DNA from: Liolophura sinensis
Lineage: Eukaryota > Mollusca > Polyplacophora > Chitonida > Chitonidae
Reading direction: 5' to 3'
DNA: 64,000 nt
NCBI RefSeq assembly: GCF_032854445.1
Contig: NC_088300.1
Span: 67,244,984 to 67,308,983, forward strand
Below, piece after piece: positions 11,767 to 63,196 of the stretch. Below the pieces are notes generated by a model. That model searched no databases and had not been told where the DNA came from. It worked only from the letters and a program-made list of their open reading frames with translations. The position numbers were made by a program, and so were the translations under genes. Numbering within the stretch: position 1 is the first letter of the stretch; each line of letters opens with the position of its first letter.

Positions 11767-12390
11767 ACACGCTTTTGTGACTGACTGAATCAGTAATTGC
11801 GAGCTCCACGAAAGAACTGCACCATGCTGTTTGTGCCTACCAGCAGACGGCTAGGCTTGTTTTGATCAGTGTGTACATTTAAATCTTAAATGAGGGTTGT
11901 CAGAATGGCCATTGAATAATATATATATATATATATTATAAATATGTGCTCTACAAACGTTGTTTTACAACTAGGTCGATGATGTAGTCCTGTGCATACG
12001 CATATATCAATTAACACATTCTGACAGCTTGTATCTTCAAAAAATGTTGAATGTTGTATGTTAAAGTGTATGTCGTTTTTTTCACCAGTAAACCTGGCTG
12101 CCATCGACTAATATTCTTTCAGTAGACCGCTGTTGTGTTTCACGTGGCTGTAGGAATATAGCCTTACCATCGCCATGTTGTATAGTTTTCGGTTCATTTC
12201 GCATGAGATTCTGGGACCTTGAAAATCATTTGATCTTTTTTCATGATGCAGCCTCAGAATCAATGGGTAAATACACTAAAGTCGTTATTATCTGATAAGA
12301 CAATAAGCATCTCAAATTTGAACCCTCGGTCATGTGCAAGTGTGATTTGGTTGTATGGCTCATAGTTTTGTTTTTTTTGCTGTAGAAAAG

Positions 12391-17468: not shown

Positions 17469-20400
17469 CTATTCTATGTCGTCTATATCGTAATAATCGC
17501 CATCATCGTCGTTGTAACCTGTGGGGCACAAACAGCAAAAACAAGGATAGAATTGTTCAGTTGTTCATAAATTAATTCCAAATTAATTTTTGTTTTTGGA
17601 AGATTTGCTGCACCATGAAAACATCATTTTTCCCTATTTGTCTACAAAACATTTTGAAAAAATTTATTGTCATACAATCTCTCATTAACAACCTGTAAAA
17701 GGATCATTATAGTAAGTTTTAATGGATTTCCAGGCACTCAGAGTAACATACAGTACAAGAAACCTGAAAATTGAAAATATTTACAATATCCTAAACCCAC
17801 CTTAGAAAATAATTGCTTCCTAGAAATTTCTTGGTTAGAAACAAATGTGAAAAAAAAGCAAGTATTTCTGGACATAGCTGTCTTTTGCCTATCATTTCAG
17901 GCACACATTATTTTTTACTGTATGTACAGTGTATTTATTTAAATATTTTCTTTCCAAGGCCTCTTGCTTTATTAAAGAGGAGCTTTCCTATGTTTTAACC
18001 TTTATTACTCTCCCTATAATGAGAGGCCTGAATTATTGGTGTTTAATGCCTTACAAAATAAGTGTTAACTTATTCTAATGGCGATCAGGAGATGAGCATG
18101 CCCAGAGTACACCAACACTGGTCACCAGGCAGGTGACGCTTCCTGACTCAAAACCAGCAAGAGGTGAATTCAAGCCTGTAACCTCACTGTCTCAACAGTC
18201 ATCGAGCAATACATTAGCAGAGTCAGCCAGTGAACACCCTAAATATTTATAAGAAAATCTTCAAAAACCAGGTAGTTTTAACACATCAAAAGGATTGGCC
18301 ATCACATTTTAGATTCAGAATCAAACTAAATGTATAAGAAGTATGTCTCTTCCTTAATGTTCTGTGGAAACGAAAGGCGTTCATATATCACATCCAGAAA
18401 ATCACATCCAGAGACTGCAGAAAACAAATATCGGACAGACGAACTCCGCTTAACTTGAACAAAGGCAAGCAAGGCGTCATGGCAATGTACCCACAGGGCT
18501 AAATTTGTGATCAACCTTTGTGAGTTTCAGCCCCAACAACTTGCACAAGCTAAATACAGAACAGCCGAACTCACAGACAAACTGTTGGGCACAGGCATAG
18601 AAATCCGAACCCAAGCAAGGCTCCATTCTCAATTTTGAGACACATTCAAAAAGTCTGAGCCAAGATATTGCATGGAAACAGTCAGTGAATGGATGGACAA
18701 AATGACAGGGAAACCAGTTCCAAGCTAGGTTGTATGCATACGCAGTCACAGACCAACTTAAGGACCAATCCAAAAATTTTCAGCAGATATATCCTGCAGA
18801 AACCAGGCAGACAGACACATAAATGGTTGGGCAAAGGCAACCCAATTCCAATTTCACATGTACATCAAGTTAGCCACAATTCAAATTTGGGACCAATCCA
18901 AAATGTTTTAGTCAATATTTTGCGTGGAACAAAATAACAGGTGAATGAAATGACCTAGAAAAACAATTTCAAATCAGGCTGCATGCCGAAATAATCACCA
19001 GCACAAAACTTAAGACATATCCAAGAAGACTGGGCCATGATGTTTTGCGGAAATGAAATAACAGATGGAAGAAATGACAGGGAAAACCAATACCCAGAAA
19101 AGCTGGATGCCAAGGTACAATGTAGTCGCAGATCAAATCTGAAAACAGTCCAAAAAATCTGAGCCAACATGTCATGTGGAAACTAAATACTGAACCCATG
19201 AACTGACTGATCATTTGTTGTGCACAGGCAGTTCCAAGGTTGTATGCCAAGGTAGTCAAGTACCAAATTTGGTGCCAATCTCGGCCAAAATATCATGTTG
19301 AAACAAAATAATGGACAGACAAAATGACCCTAAAAAACAATTTCAAGTCAAATTGTATACCAAAATAGTTACAGACCAAATTTGTGACAAGTCTAATAAG
19401 TTTCAGCAAAGGAGTGGAAGTGAAGTAACAGATGGAGGGACTGATGGGGAAAAGTGATTTCAAGAAAAGCTGTACACTAGCGGGCCGAATTTCAGACGAA
19501 CGCTAAGAGTATGCGATCTCATGTGGAAGCGAATAATGAACACACAGATGAACTGCTGGGCACAGGCAGGGGAAACCAGTTCCAAGCAAGAATTTTAGCC
19601 AAGGTAGTCACAGGCCAAGTATGATAGCAGATTAAGAAGTCTGAGCCACAATGTCAGGTCAGAAGGCTGCTGGTAATACTAGGAAGGTATGATCAGAGTG
19701 CACAGACCTGTGTGTCCGAGAAGCTGTGCTGCGCTGACTGGCTCCTCTTCCTGGTAATAATCCTCCTCACCCTCCTCCTCAATTTCCTCACCCTCCTCCT
19801 CGACTTCCTCACCCTCTTCCTCAGCATGCTCACCTGCAAACACACATACAACCAGTCAAATACACAGCCAGCTAATGCCGCTAGCTCCTGGACTCATATA
19901 AAACAACACATGACTGGTTTACTCTGCAAAAACATTTTTTAATTCTTAAAATATTAAAGACTTAAATGAATTGTTCAGGTTAGAACACAAATGAACCTAG
20001 GACAAATAATAAAATAACTCAGCCACCATATGAGATAACATTTCTCCTATTTGCTAAAATATGCACTACATCTGTGGTAGATTTTCTTCAGGATTTAAGG
20101 TATGTATGACGGAAAGACACTTCTTGATTGGGATGTTTATACGAATGAATAAAACCTAATTCTTTGATTTATTCACTAGCGATATTTGAATATTATTGCT
20201 TACTGTCTCGATCAAATTAAGTCACAATCAAACGAAAAGGATGTTGTACCATTTTACACCATAGTTGATTTGAATGTATGAATGATTAGGGTTGAACACC
20301 ATACTGACAGTAATTCAGCTATATAAGTGCGAAAACATGTTAAAATGAGGAAACAGTTCTGGTTTTCAACATGAGGATGATTTCAAAATTTTAGGTCTTT

Positions 20401-23400
20401 ATTCATATACATACAATTATGTTCATGTCCACTGGACCACACTTGTCTTCACTACCCTCACTACCCTCACCTCCCCCACCCCCCAGCAGACATAGATGAA
20501 AACAGTCATGTCTTTATGTTACAAAGTTTTTAGTTCTCATTTGATAAATATTTCTTGTTGTTTATGCCAACATTGTACAAGACTTACCATATTGGACGGG
20601 ACCAGATTCCACAACCACTTCTGCCGGGTCAGCCACACTTTCCACTTTGGCTTTTTTGGAGACAGGTTCCTGAAAAATTGGTGCTACATGTCAAGGCTTG
20701 ACATACACTTTGGTGCTTCGTTTATTTATTTATTTAATTCTTGTTGATTAAACGTCATACATGATATTTTTTCACTTATATTTCGAATCCAAGTGCCTGG
20801 GATAAACCATGGACCTTTGGCATGTCACTAATGAACTTTTCCACACGTAGAGAAATGCATTCATATTAGTGGAAGACCAGGGACATGTCTTATGAGCCGG
20901 ATGCACTGTACCCCTGACGTAAAGACCACGGTAACATTTAGCTAAGACAGATGTCACCATGGTAAGTGCGCTTGTCGTAGCATTGTGACAGCTTTATAAG
21001 ACGGGCCCATGTGGCCTTCAAGAACGTCAGACTGCCTAATGGCCAGACGAGCATTGCCAAATGTATACTGTAACCAAGGCCCTACGAGCAGTGAGGGCGG
21101 TGAGAGAATAGTGAGAGAATATCATATTAATGAGACCGATTCCACAAAGCCATTTCTGACTTAAGTCAAAATTTGAAATACAATCTCAAAACTTATTTCT
21201 GGGTTTGAGAAATCATAATTTTGTACCCCTCATCAAGGTTATCTTAATACAAATGTATCAAAATTTTTAACTTCCAGTAACAAAAACTCAGTCTCGAACA
21301 AAGTTTTCAAATTTTGACTTAAGTTAAAAATGGCTTTGAGGAACTGGCCTCAGTCAATGGTTGTACACAACTTAGTATCTTAGTCAATATTAAATATACA
21401 CTTGTTTACTTTAGTCCACACTTCACAAAAGCCTTGGACACTTGTTATAAACTGATACAAAAATCCCAGTGCTAACCTACCTCTGACAGAGTGTCTATGC
21501 TAATACTGGGCTTTCGGAATCTAAAAAAAAAATAAGAAAAAAACATACATTAATAAGTACATTTCAAACAGGATTTGATATTTTTGATACTAAGAAATTA
21601 TATCAATTTCCCCTGAAGTTGTGGATAAAATATATTAGTTTCTTTGACTGCTAAACACTCAAAAAATTTTTCACTTATGCAGGTGGGCAAAAACTGAAGT
21701 GCCCTTGTGTGAGTCCACCAAACTTTACAACTATTGGCAAGTTACTGACACACTGTCCTCAATATGACATACAGATATTCACAGCACATTGGTACATCGT
21801 ACCTGGATAAGCCTGTAAACATCACACTGGTGTCGGCTGTCATTGGCTGCCTCTTTAATCTGCTAGGGACAGGAGATTCTGGAGGTTTCATTGATACAGC
21901 TGGCGTGCTGTCTGTTTTGTTGAGATCTTTTAAAACATCGTAGTTGATTTTGTTGGATATTTTCTTCTGCTGTAACATCTGCTCTATGGCTTCTTTGGCG
22001 GTGTTAGCTTGGATAGGCTGCTTCTTCTTGTTCTTCCGTTTCTGAGAATGAGTGAAGGACACCGTCACACCTTGTGCTCGCAAATAATCCTCAAACACAG
22101 ATGTTATGCGTTGACCCAAACCAAATTCACAACACTCAAAATTTATTAAATTAAATGACTGGAGTTTCACTCTGCACTCTTATTTCAGCATAATGGTGGG
22201 AGGAAACCGGAGTTCCCAGTGGGGGGTGGGGGGGGGAATCATTATTATCTGCTGTTGCTAGCTGACCTACCCATAACATTCAAAATGACAATATGACATG
22301 ACAATAATGTTTTTCATTTTAATGATTCGGGGGTATTCTTCTCACTTCAGTGGTTCAGTACCTGACCAACGGGATTGCAGATTCCAATCCTGCTCCGACT
22401 TATTTGGCAGGAGTTGAAGTGACAGAGTACATGTACCTGACAAAGCGGTATACCCTGGGTATTTTGGAGCCTTTGTATAAGTGAAAAATTGTTGAATACT
22501 CTAAATCTTCAACCTTTTCAACCATTAAAGCACTTAGTGAAAGTTATGCATACAACTATTATTAAAATGATTCTAAAAACAATCTGTTCATGTTATTAAA
22601 GGCACAAGCTTCATAAAACTGTACAAATAAGTTCTCTACACTTCACAGTTCTGTCAGAATGTTTTAAAATACTGGTTGCACGTTGAGACGGTTGAAGCTT
22701 TTCGGTGAAATATAATGGTTGGGTCAAATTCTAGCCTGAAGGTAATACAATGGAAACAAGCTTTCCACACTTGTAAATATACCTTCTTTTCAGGTTTGTT
22801 TGCATTTTCCTCTCTCTCCTTGGCTTCCCTCTCCTCTTTCTCTGAAAAGTTTAGATAAATACATGAATATGCAAGATAGACAAAATTAAAAAGGCCGATT
22901 TGTCGGCTTACCAGTCAAGACAATTCAAGGATTTGATTTGTGTAATATTATGTAATTAGCATTTTGTTAGCTGAGTTAACGTCTTCATTCAAAGTCATTT
23001 ATTTTTAAAAATAACCTTATGTCTATATGAAGGTTATATCTAGACATGTCTTATACTTTCACGTAATGCACTTATTTTCTTGGTTCCACAAGGTATCTTA
23101 ACGAGAATAAAGGCTGAACTCATTTCAATCCCAGTCAAATCCACTGCATTGCACTTAATCACCTTTTTGCTCCTGGAGGTAATCGGCATTAGCTATCATC
23201 CACAACTTTGTTTTCACTTCTACTTCTTCTTCCCCAAGAATCCACTAAAATTAAAATAAAGATTTTTTGTTAGGAGCACACAGCTGCTGTGTTTGTTTAT
23301 TTGCTGGCTTAAGGCAAATATGTAACATAGCTTTCAACATTACTCAAAAGTACTTCAAAACAGTGTTGTAAGAGAAATCTCGATTGGTTTATTGCTTTCA

Positions 23401-26400
23401 GCACAGCAGCTTATAAATGCACAGCAGAAACATCTGAGGCACAGTGTAAGAGAGTGCGAGCCAATCATATGCACAGTGTATGTGGCTGTGAGCCAAATTA
23501 AGGCACAGCTGGAGTGGCTGTAGCCCAATCTGAAGCAAAGTGCATGTGCCTGTAGGCCAATCTGAGGCAAAGTGCAAGTGCCCCCTAAGCCAATCTGAGG
23601 CACAGTGCAAGTGACTGTAAGCTAATCTGAGGCACAGTGCAAGTGCCTGTAGGCCAATCTGAGGCAAAGTGCATGTGCCTGTAGGCCAATCTGAGGCAAA
23701 GTGCAAGTGCCTGTAGGCCAATCTGAGGCAAAGTGCAAGTGCCTGTAGGCCAATCTGAGGCAAAGTGCAAGTGCCTGTAAGCCAATCTGAGGCAAAGTGC
23801 AAGTGACTGTAAGCCAATCTGAGGCACAGTGCAAGTGCCTGTAGGCCAATCTGAGGCAGTGCAAGTGCCTGTAGGCCAATCTGAGGCAAAGTGCAAGTGC
23901 CTGTAGGCCAATCTGAGGCAAAGTGCAAGTGCCTGTAGGCCAATCAGGATTCACTTATGTCACCAATTTTACAAAGTGTGACCTCACTGGTCAAGGGCCT
24001 GATGGTTGCAGGTGAGGAAATAAAGCACCGTGTCAATTTTGCAAGCCTAGCCACTTAGCAAAGCAACTTACAGCATCCAGTTCTGCGTCGTCAATGCCAG
24101 TGAGGTCCAGTTCTCCATCTTCATCCCCTGTAACTGAACACAAACACCCATACAGTCAGCTACCCTCGCAAAAACTAAGCTTAATACACGAAAACATCAC
24201 ACTTCAATCAAGGGCCTTTATCAAGAAACAGCTTCAGTTTCCTCTGTGGAAGCACTCATGTTTACTACTTGAAAAAGGAAGTATCGTTACGGAGACTTTT
24301 TACTTTGGTTTACTTTTCTCAGTTTTCAGAGTATAAAATTCAGGAGACAGTCGGCATTTCACGTTCTTCTCATTTCCCCCAGAGAATGTATAAAGCTTAG
24401 GTTCCAGTATGCCCAGGGGCTGATTCCAAAAAGCCATTTCTGACTGAAGTCAAAACACTCTGCACAAATGCATAGTTTTTGGTACTGAAAGTTGAAATCT
24501 GGACACATTTGTCATAAGACAATATTAAGATGTCTTAAGATGAGGGTGACAAAATTTTAAATTTTTAAAGCCTCAAAACAAGCTTTCAGATCATATTTCA
24601 AATTGTAACTTAAGTCAGAAATGGCTTTGTAGCATCAGCCCAAGTTTGTGTGTAAAATTAGTGAAAACCATATGTAATTCACTGTAAACCACAATAATTC
24701 CAAATGTCTTTCACAAACTTAAGGGTGATTAGATGTTTAAAAATTTCATGAAATTATTGGTGATTTATGGTAGGTGTTTAGGTGTATTTGGGTGGGGAAA
24801 ACACAGTAACAAACATAACTAATTATTAAAAAGACAAACAGTGGAGAGAAATTTCAAAATTTTTGATTCATTTATTTATTTTATTTGGTTGGTATTTTAC
24901 ACGGTACTCAAGAGTATTTCACTTATACGACCGTCACCAGCACTATGATGGGAGGAAACTGGGCAGAGCCAGGGGAGAAACTCACAACCATCGGCAGCTG
25001 AGACCTTCCCACGTACGGCCCGAGAGGAAACCAGCATGAGCAGCGTCCACCGTGGTGAGTGGCTCCTGGGTCATTATGCTACGCCAAACAACTGAGCCAC
25101 GGAAACCCCAAGAATTTTTGAGTTGGTTCAGCTAAATATGAAAATGTGTGGCATTTGACTCCTAACTAAACCCCTTGGGCCTATATTCTCCGAAAAATGT
25201 CAATTAAAAAATTATATGGGGAAATCTGCCACTGCTCCTAAGTGTCCGCCCGACGAGATAACATGCAAATGAGGCAGCCCAAAGATTCCCACAATGCAAC
25301 GTTCCCTCGTGGATCGCACATGTAAACAATATGATTTTCTAAAGTGAATTATCAGCCTAGTAATCCAAATACTACCTTACTGTAAACTAAATACGAAGTA
25401 ATAAACAAATTATGTGTACGACCAAACTAAAGTTACATAGTAGGCTGCATAATTACAACACAATGCGGTGTCTCACTTTTCATCTTCGCTGAACATCTCC
25501 TGTCGTCTTGATAACAAGCAGACGTACATGTACATCAGGCTTTCTGATACGTATATACAACGACTTGAGTGAGTTGATGGTCAAAGGGAAACCTCAGATA
25601 AAACAGAACTTTTGATTTTCACTGAAAGTCAGATATGTGTCAGTAGACATCTGTAAGCCTCGACTTTATGTAGATAATGTCTATGATAATGGCACAAGTT
25701 AGCATGTTTGTCGTACTATTACAAGAGAAAACGACGTAAAAACCTGATGACATTGATGATGATAACTACTACTGCATTCAGTCTAAAACCAAGCTAAAGC
25801 TGACTGCTGTAGGGTACGTAAGTAGAACAGAATCCCATCAGCAAAAGCATAAACTTAGAGCTTGTCTGTAGGAGACACATGAATGCCAAACTGCAGCTCA
25901 ACATATACAGCAGTGAAGTCGTGATTTTGGTAATTTATGGTGCACAGAGAGCATCAGCGATGGAAAATCTCCCACATGTTCTGCTCTGCATGAGTGCACA
26001 ACTTCAGCTCAATACATACAGTAAGATACCTAAGATAAGATACACCCTTAACATTAGACAACAACATTCCTTTGTTAAAACTGAAACATTACCTTGTGTG
26101 TTATCATCTCTCATACACTCCTCCACACACTCCTTTATACCAATGCTGGCAGCTGTTGGTCCGGGGCCTACAACTTCTACCGGCTCTAAACTAGATATAA
26201 CATTGGTCAATTCCGTTTCCTCTAGTTCTGATACCTCAGGGTCTCTCTCGTCAACCACACAAGGGCTACATGTGCTTGATGTGAGATTGTCCACGGCAAC
26301 GGGTGTGGTCTGTGATGTGGGTGTGGTCTGTGATGTGGGTGTGGCCTGTGATGTGGGTGTGGCCTGTGATGAGTGTGTGGTCTGTAAAGATGGTGTAGCT

Positions 26401-29400
26401 TGTGATGAGGATGTGGTCTGTGATGTGGGAGTGGTCTGTGTAGGGGGTGGAGTCAAGATGTCTAAAGTAGAAACTGCTGCCATATCAATCAATGAACCAT
26501 GCCCTGTCAGGACAGGGAGAACCTGCTCAACTATGTCCTCATTCGACCCCTCTTCTGAAAACACACACACAAAAGAAAAAATAAACTATTTCTGCTCACA
26601 TTAATATAGATATTTCTGAGCTGGTAATGTCTATGAGGGTGAAGCATTAAGGACACAATGCTCCAAACATCTTCTGTTATTGGACAAAACTTTTATCGTT
26701 GAATAGCTTTCACAGTCAACTAATTTTCAGATGAATTTTCAACTGGTATATGAGCTAACCCAAACTAGGCTCCATCCAGTTTATCCTGAGATAAATCTGA
26801 TCACACAATCAGTGCAGTGATACTGAAACAACATTTTAGTTAGCATGTGACTAAACTTTTCTGATTTATGATGGGAGAGAAAAATAAGACCTACTACAAA
26901 ATGCTGCCCAGGGGCCTTTGGGTTTTTTCTGAGTCTTCTCTAATGTCTTTTCTATCTCATCCTGCAGACTGCTTACTTCAGAGGTTAAGTCATTCAGCTT
27001 GTTGCTGTCCTCCATCTGCAACAACAACGCATTTCAGCTTTTATCTGTTTGACTGATTATGGGGTTGTGACTTTATGGTGTTCTCGGGGGTTGCAGGCTT
27101 TATGGTCAATATGTAGAGTTTGGAAACTTATGGGCCATATGTAGAATCTGAAAACTTATGGTCGATATGCAGATTCTGGAAATTTATGGTCGATATATAG
27201 AATCTGAAAACTTATGGTTGATATGTAGAATCTGGAAACTTATGGTCTATATGTAGAATCTGGAAACTTATGGTCCATATACAGAATCTGGAAACTTATG
27301 GTCGACATGCAGAATCTTGAAACTTATGGTCCATATGCAGAATCTGGAAACTTATGGTCCATATGCAGAATCTGGAGAAAACCAGTGCCCTTTGCCTGCT
27401 ACCTGACAACGTCCAGAATGAAAGTTGCACAAGACTTAACAAGGGGCATATTTTTCCTCAGAAGCTCATCAATGGTGTGCTCACCTGAGCTAGCTTAGTC
27501 ATGAGCTTACTTGAACTGGCTTAGCCTTGAGCTTACCTCAGCTGGTGTGGCCTGGAGTTCACCACAGCCAGTTCAGCCTTGAGTTTACCTGATCTAGTTC
27601 AGCCTTGAGCATCCCTGAGCTAGTATAGGTATGAGCTTACTGTAGCTAGTTCAGTCTGGAGCTTAACTTTGCTGGTCCAGCCTTGAGCTTACCTGAGCTA
27701 GTTTAGCCTTGAGCTTGCCAGCGGTGAATGCTGGAGGGTCAGCTTCNNNNNNNNNNNNNNNNNNNNNNNNNNNNNNNNNNNNNNNNNNNNNNNNNNNNNN
27801 NNNNNNNNNNNNNNNNNNNNNNNNNNNNNNNNNNNNNNNNNNNNNNNNNNNNNNNNNNNNNNNNNNNNNNNNNNNNNNNNNNNNNNNNNNNNNNNNNNNN
27901 NNNNNNNNNNNNNNNNNNNNNNNNNNNNNNNNNNNNNNNNNNNNNNGCTGGAGGGTCAGCTTCTTCCTCCAGATCTATCCGCTGGAACTCATCAATTGTC
28001 AGTTCGCTTGAGGCCGTGTTACCAAACTCTGTCAGCCTGCGGCAAACAACAACAGCAATGTGTGTCCACAACCAAACAAAAACATTCATAATTTTGTCAA
28101 AAATGGAGGAAATGTCCCATACTCAAACTTGATCTTTAACTTGTTTTCGTGAAACAAATTTTCAACTGAGAATAAGCTAGAAAACTTTCTAGGCTCATTA
28201 AAAACCTACCATAATTTTGGAAGAAACAAACAACACAGTTCAAAACTCAAAGTTCAAGACCTGTAATTTGTTATTGTGAAGCCACATACATGGAGAAATT
28301 AAAAAAGAGTGAAGCCTCATACATGGAGCAATTAGAACAGTGTGAAGCCTCATACATGGAGCAATTAGAAAAGTGTGAAGCCACAAACATGGAGCAATTA
28401 GAAAAGTGTGAAGCCTCATACATGGAGCAATTAGAAACAGTGTGAAGCCACAAACATGGAGCAATTAGAAAAGTGTGAAGCATCATACATGGAGCAATTA
28501 GAAAAGAGTGAAGCCTCATACATGGAGCAATTAGAAAAGTGTGAAGCCACAAACATGGAGCAATTAGAAAAGTGTGAAGCATCATACATGGAGCAATCCG
28601 AAAAGAGTGAAGCCTCATACATGGAGCAATTAGAAAAGTGTGAAGCCACAAACATGGAGCAATTAGAAAAGTGTGAAGCCTCATACATGGAGCAATTAGA
28701 AAAGTGTGAAGCCACAAACATGGAGCAATTAGAAAAGTGTGAAGCATCATACATGCAGCAATTAGAAAAGTGTCCTGAAAATTGTTAACATCAAAAACAT
28801 GATAAAAACTAAAATAGGTTCATTTAAAATGGATGGAACCGTCTGAAATTCGAAAAAGCAATATGTAACACGTCACACTGAAGCCAAAGACCATTGAAAG
28901 AAATGCAGGACTGACTGTCAGGCTGACAGACAAAGGGTAAAGCTATAATCTGTCTCAGGTAGGGAAGTATTGTAAAAAATGTACAACAATCATCTTGCTT
29001 GATATAGTAAGCTTGATTTCTTTAACTATTCGGTATAGTAGGCTTGATTTCATTAACTATCCAGTATAGTAGGCTTCATTTCATTAATTACCAGTATAGT
29101 AGGCTTCATTTTATTAACTATCTGGTATAGTAGGCTTCGTTTCATTAACTATCCAGTACAGTAGGCTTCATTTCATTAACTATCCAGCCATAACACCAAA
29201 AAAAAAATAAGAAAAATTTATCCCAGGATATCCCTGAAAAGACCAAAAGGCACATACAGGAGTCCCAATAATCATGGATTGATTACCTTTCAAATAGGGT
29301 CAATGATATGGCAGACCAGGGCAGACAGACAGAAGGTTTGAAGAGTTAAAAAAGAACAAAAAATCTTCAAGTTGAAAGATAAAATACCTTTTCCTGATAG

Positions 29401-32400
29401 TTGTTTCACACACCCTTACAACTTTGATGATGTCTTTCATTTTACGGCAAAAAGTCATGGATTCTGCAGCAACCAAGAGAGCTAGAAAAGAAACAAAATC
29501 CTTTCAGTTAACTTAGTACAGAAATGAGACCAAATTAAATTGGAGCAAATTATAACTTTCATAACTGTTCTGTCCAATTATTGCACATTTATTATACTGT
29601 AACACACAAATGAAATCACCTAATATGTGCAAGTTTATTTCATTACAAATATCTTCTGTGACAGGATAAACATAAAAATATTCATTAGATGGATGTAAGC
29701 AATGGTCTGACGTAAAATCATATATGTGGGATGGTCTGCCAGCAACATGTGGATGGTCGTGGGTTCCCCTGGGCACTGCCCGGTTTCCACCCACCCATAA
29801 TGCTGGCAGCCATCATATAAGTGAAATATTTTCTTGAGCACGTCTTAAAACACCAATCAAATAAATAAATAAATTTAGTGAATTTTGTGTTTTAGAACGC
29901 ATTCAAGAATATTTCACTCTGAGGTAACATGGCAGAGGCCAGGAGAATCCCTCGACCATACGCAGGTTTCTGCAACTTCATTATTTAGGGGTACAATCGT
30001 CTGCAGTAGCAGCTATGCTTTTGCCAACCAGGGGGTCTGAATTATCTTTACTGTTTGCTTGGTGACTGGGGTTTAACACCACATTCAACATTACTTCGGT
30101 CACATCACAGTGGAAACGTTTCCTTGAAGCAGGTTAGGCCTGATGCTGACATGTTTATAGCGCTGCCTCACTGATTCACCATGCCAAAGGACACCAGACA
30201 AGACACCTTAACCAGTCACATTATACTGACACCAGAAAAGAAACCTTAACCAGTCACATTAGACTGACACCAGACAAAACACCTTAACCAGTCACATTAT
30301 ACTTACACCAAACAAGAGACCTTAACCAGTCACATTATATGGACACCAGACAAGACACCCTAACCTGTCACATTATACTGACACTGAGCTGACCAGCGCT
30401 TAGCACATTCTTTTCATAATGTACTTTATGTGACAGCAGTGTGCTCTCAACTGTGACCAAAGTATCAACTTGAGCCTATAATCACCTATATCTGGTATTA
30501 GCCAGAATGCCTTTGCTCAGGATTTTTGAAAGCGCACTGAATATTAGACCAGTTGACTTCTGAAGTACATTACACAAGTTTTGCCTTGTGTGAGGCTCTT
30601 AGTCATGGAACAACCTGTATTAGACATAGCTCGAACTTAGTCTTACATGTATACATATTTACAGCTCTGTAAATCCAACGTTCCAATGCATGAATCTTTG
30701 GATGAAAACATTTATAAACTTTGAACTAAAAAATTTAATAATTCCATATTCCAAAATTATTTTTAGTCATTTTTTGGTATATAATATATGGAAGTTAAGA
30801 CTAATTTTGTGCTTAAGTACACTTAGACCTCCTTCCAGATCCCAAACCCTGTAAATTCATGATTTTTTGTTATGTCTTCTTCCCTTTCCATAAAATCTGC
30901 CTTAAAGAGAGACAGATTCGTTTCCGATTGGCTGGTTTTAGAGACAGGCAAGTGTAGGCTATGTCTAGCCTATTAAAGCTGAATTTCAGCTCTGATGCCA
31001 TTTAATCCAGGAAAACCTATCTCAGGATCGATTCTGTATCAAGTTGAAGAAAATAAAACAAGATACTATACAAGGAAAAGTGTGCTTTTAAGGAACGTAA
31101 AGTTTTTCAGTTTTTGAGCCATATTTTGTGTTTTTTCACAGCCCCTCTATTTTATGTAAACTTTCTGTCAATGGTTGGAAATATTTGGAAATGAAGTCAT
31201 CCATGAACATTTTCCAGCAGAGTTATTTGACAGCTATCGTTGTTTACGGCACCACAGCATGGTATTTAATTTCTCGACTGATTGCTGGGGCCTTAAAAAA
31301 ACTGCAGTTTTATGCCCCTAGAACAAAACTGATAAACTTTTTTGTACTGTTATGTTCGGCCACATCATATAATAGGCATTAATAATTAAAAAATAAACAC
31401 TTCATGAATCCCTGTAAGTGATTACTGACCTGCTCCACAGAGACCTGAAGGTCGTCTTCCCGTGTGAATCCAGTCCCTCTTCATCCTCTGTACCAACCGC
31501 ATGGCTGTCATCGACACCTCATGAGTCTTATCCTCAAACTCTAGTTTATGCGCAAACCGTGGAATGTATAAACATGGATCTGAAATGAACGAAGTCAAAC
31601 TTACATGAGAATAATCAGTTTAATAGTCATTTGGTATGTAGCATGCTGGCTGTCAAAGATGATGAGAAATACTAAAATGAAAAATTAGAATGACATTTCA
31701 CCAAACAGCTTTGTTTCTTTTAGTCATATATATGATTGAAAGTGGCATGGCAAGGATCACTTCATGTATTTTTTTTTTTTTTTTTTACCCTCTATTTATT
31801 GGTTCATTTGATTGCTTGTTGCCATTTTACTTTTTGGTAACCAACAATAAAAGTAATATCAGGTTACTGAAGGAACAAGGGAAGTAACCTCCCTGCAAGA
31901 AATGAGGTAGAACTTCAGTGTAAAATTGTCTCCCTTCGTCCACCTGCTGCATTGTGGGATACTGCTAATCCAACATGGCGAATGGAGCTAACATCTTAAT
32001 GAGTGGAACAATTTAATAGGCTTCTAAACCTCACTGATGTCATCTTCAAGGTGGAGATCTGGTGGGTAAAGTAGCGCACACCCTAATCCCTTACTAGTAC
32101 AACTGCACAGTGTGCAACTAGGCTGCAACATAAATTTACACGCCCTGAAAGTTTGCAAATGGCCGGGGGGTTCGCCACTGTCAAAAGAACGCACCTTGTA
32201 ATTTACGCGCCGGATTGCACCAGATGAGTTTTCATGGACGGAGAGTTTGTAGTCGCCGGAACGGGATTCAGGGTGTTAGGTTTTGATAGTGAAATGTAAT
32301 GCAAGAGGAGGGGCCTCCGTGGACAAGGTGGTTATCACGCCAGCGCGGGGCAATGATCCAGGAGCATCTCACCAATGAGGTCGCTGTGAGTTCAAGCCAA

Positions 32401-35400
32401 GCTCTTGCTGGCTTCCTCTCCAGCCGTACGTGGGAAGATCTTCCAGCAGCCTGCGGATGGTCGTGGGTTTTCCTCGGGCTCTGTCTAGTTTCCTCCCACC
32501 ATAATGCTGGCCGCCGTCGTTTACGTGAAATATTCTTGGGTACGGCGTAAAACACCAATCAATTAAATAAATAATGCAAGAGGGAAGTGGCAGACCTTTG
32601 CAGCCGCTGTCTATATGCCTTCATTTTCAATTTCTCATGTTTTATGCAATTTCGTAAAAATTCCTGCTGAATGAATTCAATTGTATACTTTTCTGTTTGC
32701 TGTTGTAGTAAGAGCTGCTAAACCATGCAACATGTCCAGTAAAGGCTGTAAAGTGCGTGATGATCAGGATGAGGTGAACGAGGAGGTGCCACAGAACTAC
32801 GTCACCCCAGTCCTAGTGCCAAGGCCCATCAAGAAAACAGAGGCTCAATGGCCAAACAGGACACCTCCAATTTTGCCTGGGCCAAAAACAAGCGAGGAGT
32901 ACAACTGGCAGGCAGGTCAAGCATCAATTCGGGAACGAAACTCTGTCATGTTTAACAATTCTCTGATGGCGGATGTCCACTTTTTGGTGGGCCCCCATTC
33001 CAACGTCCAGAGAGTTCCGGCTCATAAGTACGTCCTGTCCATTGGCAGTTCTGTGTTTTATGCCATGTTCCACGGTGGATTAGCCACCTCCAAAGAGGAC
33101 ATCGAAATTCCTGATGTGGAGCCAGCCGCATTCCTTAATCTACTACGGTAAGACTAGTTCTGTAAAATTCTTTGTGTATCTGTGCATCAGAATTCATATT
33201 TTTTGGGCCAGTTGTGGGGGGAGGGGGTTATCTTTTTTTGTGAAATAATTATATCTCTTGGACATTACATGCATATGTCTGCTGTCAGAGGGAACAGAGA
33301 TTGAAGCTTACTAAACACTAACCACCCTTTTGAATCACTCTTCTGGATGTTTCGAATTCTTTTAGAAGACCATTAAGTGATCTTTAACAATAATATTAAG
33401 TCCCATGTTTGTCTGCAGGTATCTCTACTGTGATGAGGTTCAGTTGGAAGCAGACACAGTCCTGGCAACGCTGTATGCCGCAAAGAAATACCTGGTGCCT
33501 TATCTGGCAAAGTCCTGTGTGTGTTTCCTGGAGACCAGTCTTACGGCTAAAAATGCCTGTGTCCTTCTCAGCCAAGCCAGGCTTTTTGAAGAGCAGGAGC
33601 TTGTGGAGCGATGTTGGGAGGTAATAGATGCTCAAGCTGAAGAGAGCCTGAAGTCTGAGGGATTTGCTGAAATGGATTACTCTACATTAGAGATGGTCTT
33701 AGGACGCGAGACCATGAATGCTCGCGAGTTGTCTGTGTTCAGAGCAGCCTGCAGATGGGCAGAGGCAGAGTGTGTACGTCTGGAACTAGAAGCCACACCG
33801 AGCAACAAGAGAAGAGTTCTGAGCAAAGCACTGTACATGATTCGCATCCCCAACATGTCGCTGGACGAGTATGCCAACGGCCCAGCTCAGTCCGGCATTC
33901 TTACTCTTCAGGAAACAACAGATATCTTCCTGTACTACACAGCTCAGACCAAACCAAGCCTGAAATTCATCAGACGGAACCGAGCCGGGTTGAAACCGCA
34001 AGTGGTCCACAGGTTTCAGTCGTCGGCGTACAGGAGCAACCAGTGGCGATACCGAGGACGCTGTGACAGTATTCAGTTCTGTGTGGACAAGCGAATCTTT
34101 GTTGCCGGCTTTGGCCTTTATGGTTCCAGCAATGGAGCTGCAGAATACCAAGTTCGCATAGAGCTCAAGCGTAATGGCATTATTCTTGGCAAACACGTCA
34201 CTAAATTCTTTTCGGATGGTTCCAGTAACACCTTCACAGTTTATTTCGAAAACCCAATCCAGGTTGAACCGGATACCTATTACACAGCTAGTGCGGTTTT
34301 AGACGGCTCTGAACTCAGCTACTTCGGTCAGGAGGGTCTGGCAGAAGTAATTTGTGGTAAAGTTACTTTCCAATTTCAGTGTTCATCAGACAGTACAAAT
34401 GGGACTGGAGTTCAGGGTGGTCAAATTCCAGAGCTAGTATTTTACTGTTAATTTCCTACACACGATGTTAGAAATAAGTCACAAATTTAGGGGTGTTCCA
34501 CAGTGTTAGCTAATCCCGCCAGTGTTACAATACTAATATAAGTTATGTGCTAGTGAGGATATTTTTCTGTTTCAGAAAACAGTGCTCATGTGTTATGCAT
34601 GTGGTGAAGGTTGTCACAGTTCCCGAGTGATGATCAGTGATTTTATACTATTAAATTAAAGGAAGTGAATGTTGAAGTAAATGTCCCAGTTCTGGTATAA
34701 CACAGTATAATAAGGTCTTGTCTCCATGATGACTTGGCAATTCCCGGATCCTTACTAACTTTAGTTGCCTCTCTCATGTGTTCGCAATTTCAACTCTGAA
34801 CCTCAATGAGTAGTCAACAAGTTGAGGAAAGGACTAATTTCGCCTGGCGGAAGGGAATGAACGAAATCAAAACATAAAATTTGAGCATCATGTTACAATA
34901 CTGGAGTTGAGAAATTTATGGGAAATCTTTGTTACACATTTATTTCGAATCTGCCGCTTGCTTTGGGAGTCCAAGATGCCTATGTCATAATCTGAGGACT
35001 TGGAAAAATGAAACTCTAAAACGGATTTCAGGATTTTGTATCAAGAGCTTTGAAAACTGAAATCAACCAATTTTTATGGAAAAGCAGATGTATCTACTAG
35101 CTCAGTGAGTTTTAATACCGACATACTTCTTTAGGACTCCAGTTCTCATGTTTGAATAAGGTTGTGCATAGAAAGTCTGTTGATAAACGCGATACACTAT
35201 AAAATGACTTGTTCACACTTGCAAAGCCATTAATATTCAGCTTTTGACCATACCCTGTGTAGTATGAGTGACAATGATCCGTGTGGTTTATTGTACCTTT
35301 TATAGCCACTGCATACATCGTTATCACATGGTAGGTTAAATATTCACTTCATGTCGACTCAGTGTAACATACAGCTGCATGTATGTGACAAGCAAAGACC

Positions 35401-38400
35401 AAAAATTAATATTTTCCCTGCAATGAGTATACTGATTATAGATCTGAGAGCAATACTTCATAATGGATAATATGTGATCATATAAATTCAATCGTGTCCC
35501 TGTATTTAACTATGATGTCCTGTAGTGGTAGATCTTGATGCTGGCAGACATCTGACCAAACTCTGTGTTCTCTATGATGATAATAAAAGTAGTTTTTAAT
35601 TTAATACTGGTCGTTTTTGTTTGTCTTATGATTAATGTATTACGAATTATTCCAACAATTTGTGCACCTCGTGATTTTATATTATTTTTATGATTATCCT
35701 GGTTTGCAGTGGGCCTTATTAACCTAGAAAAGCCTGGACACTGAAAGAACATTAACTTTAAGTAAATCAGGGCTGATCCATTAGCAGATTACAGAACCAA
35801 CCTAAGCTACTGGGTACACTATAGATTCTAACAATCTCTTGGAGAATTATGTTTTCCAGCATGTCTAAAAATACTTGATGTATTTCTGTATATTTTCTGA
35901 CAGTTAAACTCAAACTGTCATTTTACGTTGATTTTAAGCTTGTATAACTGTATAACATCACAAGACGTACCAATCAGTCAGCATGATGATGAGATTCCCT
36001 GTGTGGGTTCATTAGTACACGATTAGTGCAAGTGCCAATGAGTGATACCCCCTCCTGGTATATGGTTGGAAAATTCAGCATTGCATGGTTGTGGACGTGA
36101 CACTTTATAGGTGTTCACATTTTTCAATGTCCGAGGATATAAAAAAATACTCATCACTACCTTGAAATGAAAGTTTCACACTTTGACTTAAGATAAAATA
36201 AGCTTCATGGACAATGCCTGAAGGCTATGACCAGCGCGTGACTAGTGATGTATTTATTTATTTAATTGGTGTTTTACGCAGCACTCAAGAATATTTCACT
36301 TATATGATGGCGGCCAGCATTATTTAATATGGGAGCAAACTGGGCAGAGCCCCTTGGGGAAACCCACGACCATCCGCAGGTTGCTGGAAGATCTTCCCAC
36401 GTACAGCCGGAGAGGAAGCCTGCATGAGCTGGACTTGAACTCACAGCGACCGCATTGGTGAGAGGCTTCTGGACCATTACGTTGCGCTAGCGCCATAGCC
36501 AACTGAGCCACCGAGGCCCCATGATGTACTGACCTATTGCTGGCACATTAATACACAACTCCCTGGACAGCTGTAGGTAGGTCTTCCCCAGGCTGTAGAC
36601 ATTCACTTGAAGTATGTCACTCAGGTCCAACAACATATCTGAACTCTGTTAAGAAAATGTACTGGGTTTTTTTTTCTCACCTACACATAGCTGACATGTC
36701 CCGAAAGATTGCATATTTATAATTCGTAATGGCCAGGAAATCCATGATGGCTGACAGCAACCATGCTGGAATGTGTAGAATGACAAAAGGTAAACCCAAA
36801 CTCCCAACTCTCTTTGCTGACATTGAGACACTGTCAGACTGTGTTAGTATGAACCTTATTGGTTGAAATTGGTGGATTGGTTGATTTTTAAAAAGATATC
36901 TTGTTGACAACAACATATCTGATGGCCAGGAAATCCAAGATGGCTGACAGTCGCCATGCTGGAATAAGCACGATGAAAATCAATCCCAATAGTCCTCAAA
37001 CTGGCCTCGAGATACTTGATTGGTTAAAACTGTTAAAGATATCTTGTTCACAATATCTGGTTTCACAGACAGACACATAGTATTCCATGTATACCTCCCA
37101 CTTTGAAAACGGCAAACAATAAATACTAGATGTGCACAGATGAACAAGGACATTTGTAACCACCACCCTAGTCACATGTGAAAGGATACGAGGTGTCCCT
37201 TCCGTTCGACACACCAGGTAAACGCAGGCAGCCACCACATGCATTGTCTTCCGCCCACGCGTCAACCTTTTGTTCACTGCCATTTTGAAAAAGTTGAAGG
37301 CTGTGTCTATACAATGCTGATTTAATCGCAATTGTGCACCCACATGCTGGATCTTCTTCTTTGCTGAAAAAATAGTAAAACAGCTTTTACGAAGCATCAC
37401 AGACGAGAATTTCACAAAAACTAGAAGTAGTGAGAGGAGCTGAGCTTGTGAACGTTTTTCCACCTGGAAGATCGGAATCCCAAATCAGAATCAGAAACCT
37501 TTCCTGTTCTAAACTGTTCAGGCCAAAGTGTACTTTACTGATCATTCCTGCCTTTCAGATGAATTTTGCTGGCAATGTAGTAATGTGCCCATGTATTACA
37601 GTACAAAAAAAGGAAGGTTAATGCAGCTCGGACCGAAGTAGCTATCGCATTGGAATAGATACCCCATGGACCTTCCTTGACTAAGAGACAAGTTCAGTGC
37701 AAGTTAAGTTTGAGTCAGGTTTAAATTAGCCAAATAATATACTATATTATTAAACCATATCTCTTCTTTTTTTTTTTTTTTTGTACAGTGAACATGTGAA
37801 CATTCTCACCATTCTGCAAGGTCACCGCTCTGGACTCGCGACTAAACCCTTGTTGAAATGAACTTCCTAATGTATGTGACTTTATTCCTGCAGGACACAA
37901 AGAGAACATTCATCATAAACGCCCCAAGTGTGGCGTTAAAACCCTAAGCATACATATATGAACACCCCACACATAAAAAGTATCAATATATTCTCATGAG
38001 AACACAAAAGACATCAAATACATTCAAAAAAGCAATTGAGTCTCTTGTACAATATAAATTGTATCCATGATATAACAGTAATGTTGCTAATGAGGTATAA
38101 ACCCATAACCATTCATTCCATTCATATCAAATTCTGCAAAAGTTCGCATAGAAATAAAATTTTCACCACCCCAAAATGCATTTCTACTTTTGTCAAATTT
38201 AGAGATTATCAGTATCCGTGTGGCAGATTATTTTTAAAGACAAAAAGAACAAATGAAGTATATGTCAGATGAAAGACCATTAAATATTGTTCAGAAATAT
38301 AGGCCTATAGAATTTTTCCAACCCAGTAAAATCATGATGCTTTAAAAACATTGGATTCTAAGGTGATCTGTTGAGATCCAGAAGGTACGGTTACCAATGA

Positions 38401-39564
38401 AGTATTATACATCTATGTTTTGGCTGGAAATAGTTCGTTTCAGGACTCATGTGGTGAATGCATTCATTCATGTAGCTCTTTATGTGTATGCATTTTGAAC
38501 GATAAAATCTAACAATCTGTGTGTGTTAAGTGGCAAATATCTTACGTGGCGTCACTCTTCCCAACATGGTCAGAAATGGCCACTGTAAAATCCAAATAGG
38601 CATTTTACTTGGTCGAAAATGGTTAAAGGTCTTTCATCTGACATTTACTTCATATTAGCGTTATCTTTGCTTTAATGTGCACTACACTTAGCTATGCATT
38701 GAAAACCAAAAAGGTTCTTCTGCAAGACCACTGGGACACATGTCACAATGTGACAAAAGTTTTATGTAAAATCCCTTAAAATCTTCTGGAAAAAGTTCTG
38801 GAGATATTGTTTTTATACAAGCCTGTAACACAACAAAACTTGCAAGACCCCCTAATAACCTATAAGAAATTGGCCAAGTTCTCCAATAATGAACACGGTT
38901 CTCCAAAATGCCTAAAAGTACACCTGGTATATAAAAAGTTTAAAATCTGGCTATAAAGACTTAAGAGATGAAGTTTAAACATTATGGACAGACAGACAAC
39001 CAGACAGCCAGTTCTACAGCATGACTGCTCTTATGCCAAATTTATGTGAAGTAATACTCTTGTGTGAGGAAAATTTTGATATTTCATCAGTCAGTAAACA
39101 AAAGCCTCTTGGGTTTGCAGCCTTGCCCAGATGTACACATTTTCTTGTCTACATATCATTTCAGCTACATGTATCAACCATCTAAGGAGACAAACTGAGA
39201 CCACTGACTGAGCTACCCACCATCTGAGGAGACAAACTGGCCAATGACTGAGCTACCCACCATCTGAGGAGACAAACTGGCCAATGATTGAGCTACCCAC
39301 CATCTGAGGAGACAAACTGGCCAATGATTGAGCTACCCACCATCTGAGGAGACAAACTGGCCAATGATTGAGCTACCCACCATCTGAGGAGACAAATTGG
39401 CCAATGACTGAGCTGCTTCCCCCTGCTGATTCTTGAAACTGGACCTCGGAGACAATGATCTGGTCCTCTAACACTGAGCCACACCCGGTACAGACAGCAT
39501 CCCCCCGGGCCTGGTCTATGTCAATTTCTGTGCAGCCACAATGTGAGCAGACACCTGACGACAT
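17469..39564 (-). CDS. BRF1: BRF1, TFIIIB 90-kDa subunit (TFIIB-related factor), 17 coding exons
   Basis: BRF1 bridges TFIIIC, TBP and RNA polymerase III at tRNA and 5S genes. Exons in coding order: 39564-39381, 37866-37810, 37363-37190, 36638-36534, 31579-31430, 29481-29388, 28036-27693, 27015-26895, 26554-26093, 24127-24072, 23244-23163, 22841-22783, 22041-21803, 21520-21481, 20669-20588, 19833-19708, 17518-17469. Phases agree at every junction and all introns are GT-AG. The product is 735 residues (human about 677). Order: zinc ribbon with Cys6, Cys9, Cys25, Cys28; two cyclin folds (exons 3-6; [32 protein letters not shown]); [18 protein letters not shown]; a TPTSQ-repeat insertion (exon 9); the [10 protein letters not shown] motif; TBP-binding homology block II (exons 12-13; [20 protein letters not shown]); an acidic Glu-rich C-terminus ending DIDDIE. 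Several donors are weak (GTATCC, GTCAGT, GTACGA). The family assignment is very firm; exon 8's 3' end rests on phase alone. Confidence 0.95.
18400..19680. repeat. degenerate ~122-bp tandem array in the last BRF1 intron
   Basis: Landmarks of the type AATGACAGGGAAAACCAAT..CAAG..GCTG recur near 18702, 18828, 18948, 19072, 19200, 19322, 19441 and 19560, a spacing of 119-128 bp. Copies differ by many substitutions, so the array is old. Confidence 0.7.
20700..21130. other. BRF1 intron, unidentified repeat-like sequence
   Basis: The end resembles other dispersed repeats (TTGTTGATTAAACGTCATAC) but I could not match it to a second full copy in this window. Confidence 0.35.
21132..21352. mobile_element. 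hairpin MITE, second family, copy 1 (BRF1 intron)
   Basis: Left end GATTCCACAAAGCCATTTCT then GACTTAAGTCAAAATTTGAAA. The right end is the inverted counterpart: TTTCAAATTTTGACTTAAGT, then AAAATGGCTTTGAGGAACTG. Internal sequence is AT-rich, with no frame. The same family occurs at 24416-24641. Confidence 0.75.
22188..22230 (-). repeat. SINE family 1 fragment followed by G-run
   Basis: CATAATGGTGGGAGGAAACC matches the SINE core. It is followed by CAGTGGGGGGTGGGGGGGGG, a strongly G-rich run. Confidence 0.6.
22325..22510 (+). repeat. possible tRNA-derived SINE, third family
   Basis: TTCAGTGGTTCAGTACCTGA and GATTGCAGATTCCAATCCTG sit about 30 bp apart, like an A box and B box. The end reads TTTGTATAAGTGAAAAATTG. 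Only one copy was recognised here. Confidence 0.35.
23440..23945. repeat. 32-bp minisatellite in BRF1 intron
   Basis: About 15 copies of GCCAATCTGAGGCAAAGTGC followed by AAGTGCCTGTAG. Several central copies are identical, implying recent homogenisation. Long open frames across it on the minus strand are by-products of the repeat. Confidence 0.95.
24416..24641. mobile_element. hairpin MITE, second family, copy 2 (BRF1 intron)
   Basis: Left end GGGGCTGATTCCAAAAAGCC ATTTCTGACT; right end AAGTCAGAAATGGCTTTGTA GCATCAGCCC, its inverted counterpart. Same architecture and size as 21132-21352 but diverged inside. Confidence 0.75.
24869..25111 (-). repeat. SINE family 1, nearly full length (BRF1 intron)
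   Basis: Tail TTTATTTATTTTATTTGGTT, then TACTCAAGAGTATTTCACTT, GATGGGAGGAAACTGGGC, CCACGTACGGCCCGAGAGG, and the tRNA-like head at the right end (CAACTGAGCCACGGAAACCC). Confidence 0.88.
25263..25301 (+). promoter_or_regulatory. octamer plus ZNF143/Staf-like site pair
   Basis: ATGCAAAT (25263-25270) is followed 15 bp later by TTCCCACAATGCAACG (25286-25301), a close match to the Staf/ZNF143 consensus. This pairing is known from distal elements of animal snRNA-type promoters. I could not identify an RNA gene nearby, so function is unproven. Confidence 0.35.
26295..26438 (-). repeat. coding 18-bp minisatellite in BRF1 exon 9
   Basis: Eight six-residue units of the type Q-[TA]-T-[PSH]-[TSL]-S. 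At DNA level the + strand reads GATGTGGGTGTGGTCTGT repeatedly. Human BRF1 has no such run as far as I recall; it lies in the poorly conserved linker between the cyclin folds and homology block II and should be disordered. Confidence 0.85.
27100..27380. repeat. 28-bp minisatellite in BRF1 intron
   Basis: About ten copies of AGAATCTGGAAACTTATGGT followed by CCATATGC, with variation at the CCATAT/CGATAT positions. Confidence 0.93.
27486..27718. repeat. 26-bp minisatellite built from the end of BRF1 exon 7 and its splice donor
   Basis: On the minus strand the unit is GTAAGCTCAAGGCTAAACTA + GCTCAG. The exon's last 24 bases form one unit, and about eight more follow in the intron. Most copies keep a donor-like CAG|GTAAGC or GTGAGC at the equivalent place. 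Confidence 0.9.
27693..28036 (-). CDS. BRF1: BRF1 exon 7, interrupted by a spurious N-gap
   Basis: Encodes [18 protein letters not shown], then [14 protein letters not shown] and KLKAKLAQ. 200 Ns (27747-27946) interrupt it. The 17 bp GCTGGAGGGTCAGCTTC lie on both sides of the Ns (27730-27746 and 27947-27963). Collapsing them gives 127 coding bases in the right phase with no missing residues. Confidence 0.9.
27747..27946. other. assembly gap (200 N)
   Basis: A round 200-N spacer, almost certainly a default scaffold gap. Flanks overlap by 17 bp, so true missing sequence is probably zero. Confidence 0.95.
28268..28772. repeat. 33-bp minisatellite in BRF1 intron with 66-bp higher order
   Basis: About 15 copies of ACATGGAGCAATTAGAAAAG + TGTGAAGCCTCAT. 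Variants CCTCAT and CCACAA tend to alternate, giving a 66-bp dimer pattern. Because 33 is a multiple of three, both strands have long open frames that are probably meaningless. Confidence 0.93.
29005..29190. repeat. ~31-bp minisatellite in BRF1 intron
   Basis: Six copies of TATAGTAGGCTTCATTTCAT + TAACTATCCAG with small length changes. Confidence 0.85.
29722..29875 (+). repeat. SINE family 1, 5'-truncated (BRF1 intron)
   Basis: From TGTGGGATGGTCTGCCAGCA through CCCATAATGCTGGCAGCC and GTGAAATATTTTCTTGAGC to the (AAAT)n tail at 29858-29875. Confidence 0.83.
30055..30440 (-). repeat. SINE-like family 2 copy with internal 38-bp tandem expansion
   Basis: Left part GGGGTTTAACACCACATTCA matches the family-2 end. 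From 30190 to 30385 there are five copies of ACACCAGACAAGACACCTTA + ACCAGTCACATTATACTG, corresponding to a single segment in the copy at 39738-40075. Confidence 0.7.
30441..31429. other. BRF1 intron, nothing recognised
   Basis: AT-rich sequence with no repeat or exon-like signal that I could support. Confidence 0.4.
31946..31982. promoter_or_regulatory. candidate BTBD6 promoter motifs (ZNF143-like and YY1-like)
   Basis: GCTGCATTGTGGGATA (31946-31961) is the reverse of a Staf/ZNF143-type CCCACAATGCA site. CAACATGGCGAA (31971-31982) resembles the YY1 core ATGGCG often found at transcript starts. They lie about 730 bp before the first BTBD6 coding exon, inside the BRF1 intron. Confidence 0.4.
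32297..32583 (+). repeat. full-length SINE family 1 with 12-bp target-site duplication
   Basis: Core 32309-32571: head GGGGCCTCCGTGGACAAGGT, B box GTGAGTTCAAGCCAAGC, body, and tail AATTAAATAAATAA. TAATGCAAGAGG occurs on both sides (32297-32308 and 32572-32583). The perfect duplication suggests a young insertion, just upstream of BTBD6's first coding exon. Confidence 0.93.
32732..34451 (+). CDS. BTBD6: BTB-BACK-PHR protein, BTBD6-like, nested in a BRF1 intron
   Basis: Coding exons are 32732-33147 and 33419-34451 (donor ACG|GTAAGA, acceptor CTGCAG|GTATCT; junction LLRYLYCDE). The product is 482 residues, the usual size. BTB domain is about 72-185 ([30 protein letters not shown]), BACK about 190-290 ([31 protein letters not shown]), PHR about 330-480 ([40 protein letters not shown]). 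Such proteins are CUL3 adaptors; vertebrate BTBD6 promotes neurogenesis by removing Plzf. I start at 32732 because TTTGCTGTTGTAG at 32697-32708 looks like an acceptor; an upstream in-frame ATG (32681) would lie in the intron. BTBD3 is the close alternative; location inside BRF1 favours BTBD6. Confidence 0.93.
34452..35610 (+). other. 3' untranslated region of the BTBD6-like gene
   Basis: From the stop (TAA at 34449-34451) to AATAAA at 35582-35587, followed by T/GT-rich sequence (CGTTTTTGTTTGTCTT), a good cleavage context. No coding frame is seen. Confidence 0.6.
35582..35587 (+). terminator. poly(A) signal of the BTBD6-like gene
   Basis: AATAAA with GT-rich sequence 20-40 bp downstream. Confidence 0.6.
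36250..36520 (-). repeat. full-length SINE family 1 lying 13 bp from a BRF1 splice donor
   Basis: Tail at 36250 (TTTATTTATTTAATTGGTG), complete core, and head ending CTGAGCCACCGAGGCCCC at 36520. TGATGTA flanks both ends. BRF1 exon 4 ends at 36534, so the insertion starts about 13 bp into the intron, in sense with BRF1. Confidence 0.9.
39179..39414. repeat. 40-bp minisatellite spanning the BRF1 exon 1 splice donor
   Basis: CATCTGAGGA starts at 39221, 39261, 39301, 39341 and 39381, exactly 40 bp apart, with a decayed copy before them. The last copy is exon 1 sequence; the others are intronic and each repeats the exon end plus a GTGGGT donor (minus strand). Confidence 0.95.
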
Positions 39565-63115: not shown

Positions 63116-63196
63116 CTAAGGGGTAAACATATTCGTACAAGAACAGCACCTTTACAACTAAGCAAACAAAATATTCTTACAAGCTTTCGCTGGCAA

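Follow-up and report, generated by a model that had tools for sequence, protein, structure and literature searches.

A BTBD3/6-type gene nested antisense in an intron of BRF1 in the chiton Liolophura sinensis, an arrangement likely inherited from the bilaterian ancestor

What keeps one gene lodged in an intron of another, and for how long can such an arrangement last? We addressed this question at a locus of the chiton Liolophura sinensis, using a stretch of 64,000 nucleotides (the window; C6:67244984-67308983, where C6 is NC_088300.1) from an assembly of 609 Mb in 632 contigs. A first-pass annotation of this DNA had described a complete two-exon BTB-BACK-PHR gene resembling BTBD6 on the plus strand, between exons 4 and 5 of BRF1 on the minus strand, and had proposed that the pair has been kept since the bilaterian ancestor. 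The arrangement itself was confirmed. The interval given for it, 31430-36638, coincides exactly with the outer edges of BRF1 coding exons 5 and 4, and a product of 482 amino acids with BTB, BACK and PHR domains is encoded in an intact frame within the intron between them (Table 1; all positions without a chromosome are those of the window). We infer that this nest reflects common descent, that BTBD6 has its own promoter, and that the pair has been retained passively.

The entire coding region of the nested gene (32732-34451) falls within the single BRF1 intron at 31580-36533. The two genes are read from opposite strands and both frames are intact, that of BRF1 over exons 1-7. Intron 4 is the longest of the six BRF1 introns measured, with the other five spanning 446-1,948 bp. 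No tRNA gene was found in the window and no Rfam family matched it at the gathering score; therefore, no RNA gene accounts for intron 4. The description of a complete two-exon gene holds for the coding exons, of which there are two, but perhaps not for the transcript: because an acceptor-like site, recognized by eye at 32700-32708, directly precedes the ATG, the nested gene may have an additional untranslated 5' exon.

Table 1. Coordinates of BRF1, the nested BTBD6-type gene and other features of intron 4 in the window
Feature	Position	Strand	Remarks
BRF1 coding exon 1	39381..39564	-	ATG at 39564; zinc ribbon
BRF1 coding exon 2	37810..37887	-	26 codons, phase 1 to phase 1
BRF1 coding exon 3	37190..37363	-	First TFIIB repeat
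BRF1 coding exon 4	36534..36638	-	Ends in base 1 of Asp codon, INVPAI/DPCLY
BRF1 intron 4, host intron	31580..36533	-	4,954 bp, phase 1, in Asp codon of INVPAI/DPCLY
Second copy of the short interspersed nuclear element (SINE) family at 32306..32577	36250..36530	-	Other end of intron, opposite orientation
BTBD6-type gene, final coding exon	33419..34451	+	Rest of BTB, BACK, entire PHR; stop 34451
BTBD6-type gene, coding intron	33148..33418	+	271 bp, phase 2, inside BTB domain; sole coding intron found
BTBD6-type gene, start-codon exon	32709..33147	+	ATG 32732; first part of BTB; acceptor-like site at 5' edge
SINE copy, tRNA-type by eye	32306..32577	+	Between candidate promoter and BTBD6 start codon
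Candidate promoter core	31949..31980	.	ZNF143-like word (minus, TCCCACAATGC) and YY1-like word (plus, AACATGGCG)
BRF1 coding exon 5	31430..31579	-	Second TFIIB repeat
BRF1 coding exon 6	29388..29481	-	
BRF1 coding exon 7, first part	27947..28036	-	Interrupted by 200-N assembly gap
BRF1 TBP-binding domain (PF07741), 3' part of gene	21919..22044	-	
Probable final BRF1 coding exon, acidic tail	19679..19834	-	Assigned by resemblance to the human C-terminus

Coding exons 1-7 of the host gene were placed at GT/AG sites and join into a reading of 291 amino acids without a stop, which runs to an assembly gap. A domain scan of this product identified a TFIIB zinc ribbon and two TFIIB repeats. Residues 5-291 match yeast TFIIIB 70 kDa subunit (Brf1) with 225 bits (E 9e-66), compared to 85.5 bits for archaeal TFB, 66 bits for TFIIB and 31 bits for BRF2, and by these scores Brf1 is its nearest relative among the four. 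Past the gap, BRF1 is visible as domain and open reading frame pieces only. One of these pieces is the Brf1 TBP-binding domain, the sole match to its family in the 609-Mb assembly, and BRF1 is a single locus there. The acidic tail listed in Table 1 is probably the end of the same gene, given its resemblance to the human C-terminus.

Several features of the BRF1 sequence are recorded here in their own right. The 200-N gap at 27747-27946 leaves exons 1-6 and the nested gene untouched, and because the same 17 bases (GAAGCTGACCCTCCAGC) flank it on both sides, two contigs probably overlap at this point. A 40-bp tandem repeat at 39177-39414 (5.9 copies, 96% match) has a unit made of the 3' end of exon 1 and its 5' splice site, so that the exon 1 donor is repeated several times in a row. 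There are also minisatellites at 23459-23945, 28275-28773, 30190-30384, 59193-60383 and 63196-64000, the first three of them within BRF1.

To type the nested gene, we cross-scored it against solved domains and used its paralogue L001 on C8 as a comparison. This paralogue is its closest other gene in the assembly, 45-60% identical over its pieces, while the remaining matches reach 24-39% (24-34% in one search, 31-39% in another). Against the solved BTB domain of BTBD6 the nested protein scores 166.7 bits and L001 130.3 bits, whereas against the solved PHR domain of BTBD2 the nested protein scores 111.6 bits and L001 276 bits. Because the order of the scores reverses between the two domains, we assign the nested gene to the BTBD3/6 type and L001 to the BTBD1/2 type, as far as such comparisons can tell. 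The exon structures of the two genes also differ. The BTB intron found in the nested gene is absent from L001, whose match continues unbroken in one open frame there, and the PHR domain of L001 contains three introns, all missing from the nested gene. A further BTB-BACK-PHR gene on C7 at 54.5 Mb is divergent (26% identical) and matches the PHR family too. Scans of prokaryote genomes and of viral contigs, made with the PHR region as query, returned no confirmed relative. Within L001 itself, a one-base frame break occurs in a T run at about 2750-2765, in the linker before the PHR domain, and is likely a sequencing error or an allele.

Is the same arrangement present in other animals? The first-pass annotation had stated that human BTBD6 overlaps BRF1, and published coordinates agree. 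A study that assigns regions by gene-coordinate overlap gives one human region (hg19 chr14:105715658-105715970) to BRF1 and BTBD6 alike (PMC13115854), and reported BRF1 introns lie on either side of it: a 12.35-kb intron at 105695251-105707600 (PMC4079513) and an intron that contains a CpG at 105738159 (PMC13007632), with the build taken as hg19 in both cases. Because the shared region is flanked on both sides by BRF1 introns, human BTBD6 overlaps the BRF1 span. These papers support a position of BTBD6 within BRF1 in human, although they place it there by a region assigned to both genes and not by BTBD6 coordinates of its own. In cattle, a gene list runs NUDT14, BRF1, BTBD6, PACS2, TEX22, MTA1 (PMC11108207). 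The human and cattle locus (14q32.33) resembles that of the chiton in carrying the same gene pair, with BTBD6 in the BRF1 span in human and next to BRF1 in the cattle list. It differs in that one intron of human BRF1 is 92% tandem repeat (PMC4079513), and in that PACS2 and MTA1 are close by in the cattle list, whereas their mollusc counterparts lie 13.6 and 59 Mb from the nest.

If insertions land uniformly, and with the 3' end of BRF1 inferred, an independent insertion would fall into BRF1 with a chance of about 3.3e-5 and into intron 4 with a chance of 8e-6. Because a second insertion into the same host is this improbable, the nest is likely shared by descent from the bilaterian ancestor. 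The proposal that the pair has been kept since then is upheld to this extent, shared descent being the economical reading of a same-host chance of about 3e-5.

Most gene-order links between vertebrates and molluscs have been lost, and those that survive are often read as a sign of shared regulation. We examined the wider neighbourhood by searching the assembly for seven families, which represent 7 of the 22 other genes of the cattle list (PMC11108207), and measured distances from BRF1 at C6:67.28 Mb. Five families gave a single locus: PACS at C6:53.63 Mb, 13.6 Mb from the nest, ADSS at C6:53.75 Mb, MTA at C6:7.86 Mb, SIVA at C6:15.32 Mb (one weak match, E 4.7e-5) and TMEM121/CECR6 at C7:53.65 Mb. 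The Delta/Jagged family gave seven matches, of which three are strong, two of them on C6 and one on C8. No match to the CEP170 family was found in this search, which does not show that it is absent. By simple count, four of the five single-locus families share the BRF1 chromosome, at distances of 13.5 Mb or more. This linkage group therefore looks old; its order has been lost, while the nest has survived. Separately, about 0.11 Mb separates PACS from ADSS (C6:53.63-53.76 Mb), and both occur in the same cattle copy-number-variant gene list (PMC11108207); their closeness is possibly a remnant of an ancestral block.

We put the probability at roughly 0.62 that the nest was inherited from the bilaterian ancestor and has been held mainly by passive topology, with BTBD6 expressed from its own intronic promoter. 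BRF1 is an essential gene. Since it is also single-copy, breaks inside it should not be tolerated, and residents of its introns could not leave by rearrangement. A BTBD3/6-type gene would thus lie antisense in intron 4 of the only BRF1 by inheritance from a bilaterian ancestor to which the human overlap also traces back. Any inversion, translocation or transposition that separated the pair would require a breakpoint inside BRF1, and such breakpoints would be purged by selection, as the gene is needed for RNA polymerase III transcription. Breakpoints outside BRF1 would be free to accumulate, leaving the rest of the neighbourhood to be reshuffled. BTBD6 would be driven by a promoter within the intron, for which there is a candidate at about 31.95 kb, and BRF1 would be spliced across it. 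The first-pass annotation had offered shared regulation or a constraint against separation as the reason for the pairing. Of these, passive constraint is sufficient, fits the shuffled neighbourhood and requires no regulatory link, and we favour it over shared regulation.

Several points weigh against this interpretation. Only two lineages are compared, and the ancestral claim is supported in part; human BTBD6 probably lies on the strand opposite to BRF1, in an intron that may or may not be the homologous one. The nested gene is the only one in the assembly that we could assign to the BTBD3/6 type, and the divergent C7 gene may be another. Passive locking predicts that the nest survives wherever the BRF1 intron is intact, yet fly lute and Brf are not known to be linked. 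The vertebrate ohnologue BTBD3, on 20p12, is not known to have BRF1 around it. Both cases would argue against an absolute need for the nest. In human, the region shared by the two genes lies beyond the 12.35-kb BRF1 intron (105695251-105707600), towards higher coordinates, and human BTBD6 is therefore outside that intron (PMC4079513). Finally, two human studies hint at some co-regulation: one expression quantitative trait locus allele goes with raised expression of both BRF1 and BTBD6 (PMC8435735), and the methylation of one CpG correlates with the expression of both (PMC4351585).

These last two associations bear on the alternative that shared cis-regulation keeps the pair together. Either a bidirectional BTBD6 promoter would also produce a short BRF1 from exon 5, or BTBD6 enhancers would lie in other BRF1 introns, and in both cases separation would harm both genes. 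The geometry lends some support to the former. Only about 0.37 kb separates BRF1 exon 5 from the candidate promoter words, and the BTBD6 ATG, oriented head to head with this exon, lies 1.15 kb away from it. A good minus-strand donor word at 32195 agrees with the consensus at 8 of 9 positions (a second, at 31605, is too near exon 5 for use), and an in-frame Met is retained in exon 5, at residue 204, where a short human BRF1 isoform would start (Met205). The two promoter words, ZNF143-like and YY1-like, could mark a start-site region but are suggestive only: they are few-base matches that occur 3 and 4 times in the whole window. Nor did the ratio of observed to expected CpG reveal a clear CpG island in the intron 4 region outside a SINE: it is 0.53 over 31580-32305 and 0.67 over 31900-32305, compared to 0.53 for the whole window, and the highest value nearby, 0.88 at 32200-32599, coincides with the SINE. 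Additionally, BTBD6 is up and BRF1 is down in a pancreatic tumour dataset (PMC13205582), which runs counter to joint control. On balance, we regard shared regulation as doubtful.

A different possibility is that the vertebrate and mollusc lines each acquired BTBD6 in BRF1 by an insertion of their own. The human gene may lie in a different intron, and the large size of some BRF1 introns could make them targets for insertion. However, the same-host chance given above speaks against it, as do the four former neighbours that are still on the BRF1 chromosome. The nested gene also has its own intron and no close second copy was found in the assembly, indicating that it is not a recent retrocopy. We consider independent insertion very improbable.

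The nest may instead date to the birth of the BTBD3/6 subfamily, if the mRNA of a BTBD1/2-type gene was retrocopied, landed in the BRF1 intron, stayed there and later gained one intron. Nested genes are well known to arise from retrocopies that land in introns, and the present one has none of the three PHR introns seen in the BTBD1/2-type gene while having one intron that the latter lacks. The same pattern would follow if BTBD3/6 had lost introns or BTBD1/2 had gained them, however, and its direction is unreadable from one genome. We judge this origin unlikely, and it is compatible with passive retention of an inherited nest rather than exclusive of it. A still bolder combination, which we hold to be quite improbable, is that BTBD3/6 was founded before the bilaterian ancestor by a BTBD1/2-type retrocopy antisense in BRF1 intron 4, and that this intron then became a fixed two-way switch in which a bidirectional promoter yields BTBD6 and an N-terminally short BRF1 from the exon-5 Met. 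Xenopus BTBD6 and fly lute are reportedly required for neuronal development. If the switch were real, a neuronal-development factor and a polymerase III factor would have been wired together for more than 500 million years.

Besides the nested gene, intron 4 contains two SINE copies that belong to a single family. The window as a whole carries about 14 copies of this family, full or partial, which corresponds to about one expected per 5 kb, and the two in the intron are thus ordinary background. We had considered SINE-mediated capture as an origin of the nest and rejected it, as the copies are at background density and do not enclose the nested gene as a discrete segment. We also tried the CpG ratio as a proxy for germ-line methylation of host and nested exons. 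The ratios are 0.53 and 0.60 for the BTBD6 coding exons and 0.00-0.71 for the BRF1 exons, compared to 0.53 for the window; the BRF1 exons have few CpGs, and the proxy was dropped as uninformative.

Downstream of BRF1, at 12346-14293 on the plus strand, is a gene in which an RNase_T exonuclease domain precedes a PML_C-like domain (13427-14290 scanned). The next gene seen 5' of BRF1 is a plus-strand BTB-BACK-Kelch gene at 46425-48776 (46998-48773 scanned). The nested gene, which also has BTB and BACK domains, ends in a stop codon about 12 kb away, a nearness that is probably a coincidence. A Tc1/mariner-like transposase open frame of 272 amino acids, with an HTH_Tnp_Tc3_2 domain, occupies 3093-3911 on the minus strand. 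Exons resembling an ABC transporter are found at 58112-63176, also on the minus strand, with an ABC_tran match in 62814-63176 and no match at the cut-off in two other scanned pieces. Elsewhere in the assembly, eight molluscan-type haemocyanin units stand in tandem at C8:37880506-37891931; this family is characteristic of molluscs and identifies the genome as molluscan.

Conserved nested pairs are a known kind of arrangement, and existing annotation already shows the overlap in human. The LRRTM genes within alpha-catenin genes are likewise coding genes nested in unrelated hosts, whose origin and loss have been studied (PMC3933685). That work, as its title states, concerns vertebrate evolution, whereas the BRF1/BTBD6 nest would be older if it is common to human and mollusc. 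In Drosophila, 2mit is reported to be an intronic coding gene in opposite orientation to its host, timeless2 (PMC3786989), but the genes are different ones. A literature search by titles, abstract starts and passages, in which supplements were not searchable, found no evolutionary treatment of the BRF1/BTBD6 pair.

The depth of this nest would be unusual if it is confirmed in other phyla, and its shuffled neighbourhood makes the choice between passive and regulatory retention testable. Because the nest has outlived the shuffling of its neighbours, with PACS now 13.6 Mb away, it offers a clean test of whether residence within an essential gene suffices to keep another gene where it is. Should the nest prove to occupy the same intron across phyla, it would also help to date when the BTBD3/6 subfamily arose, a kind of marker that is rare.

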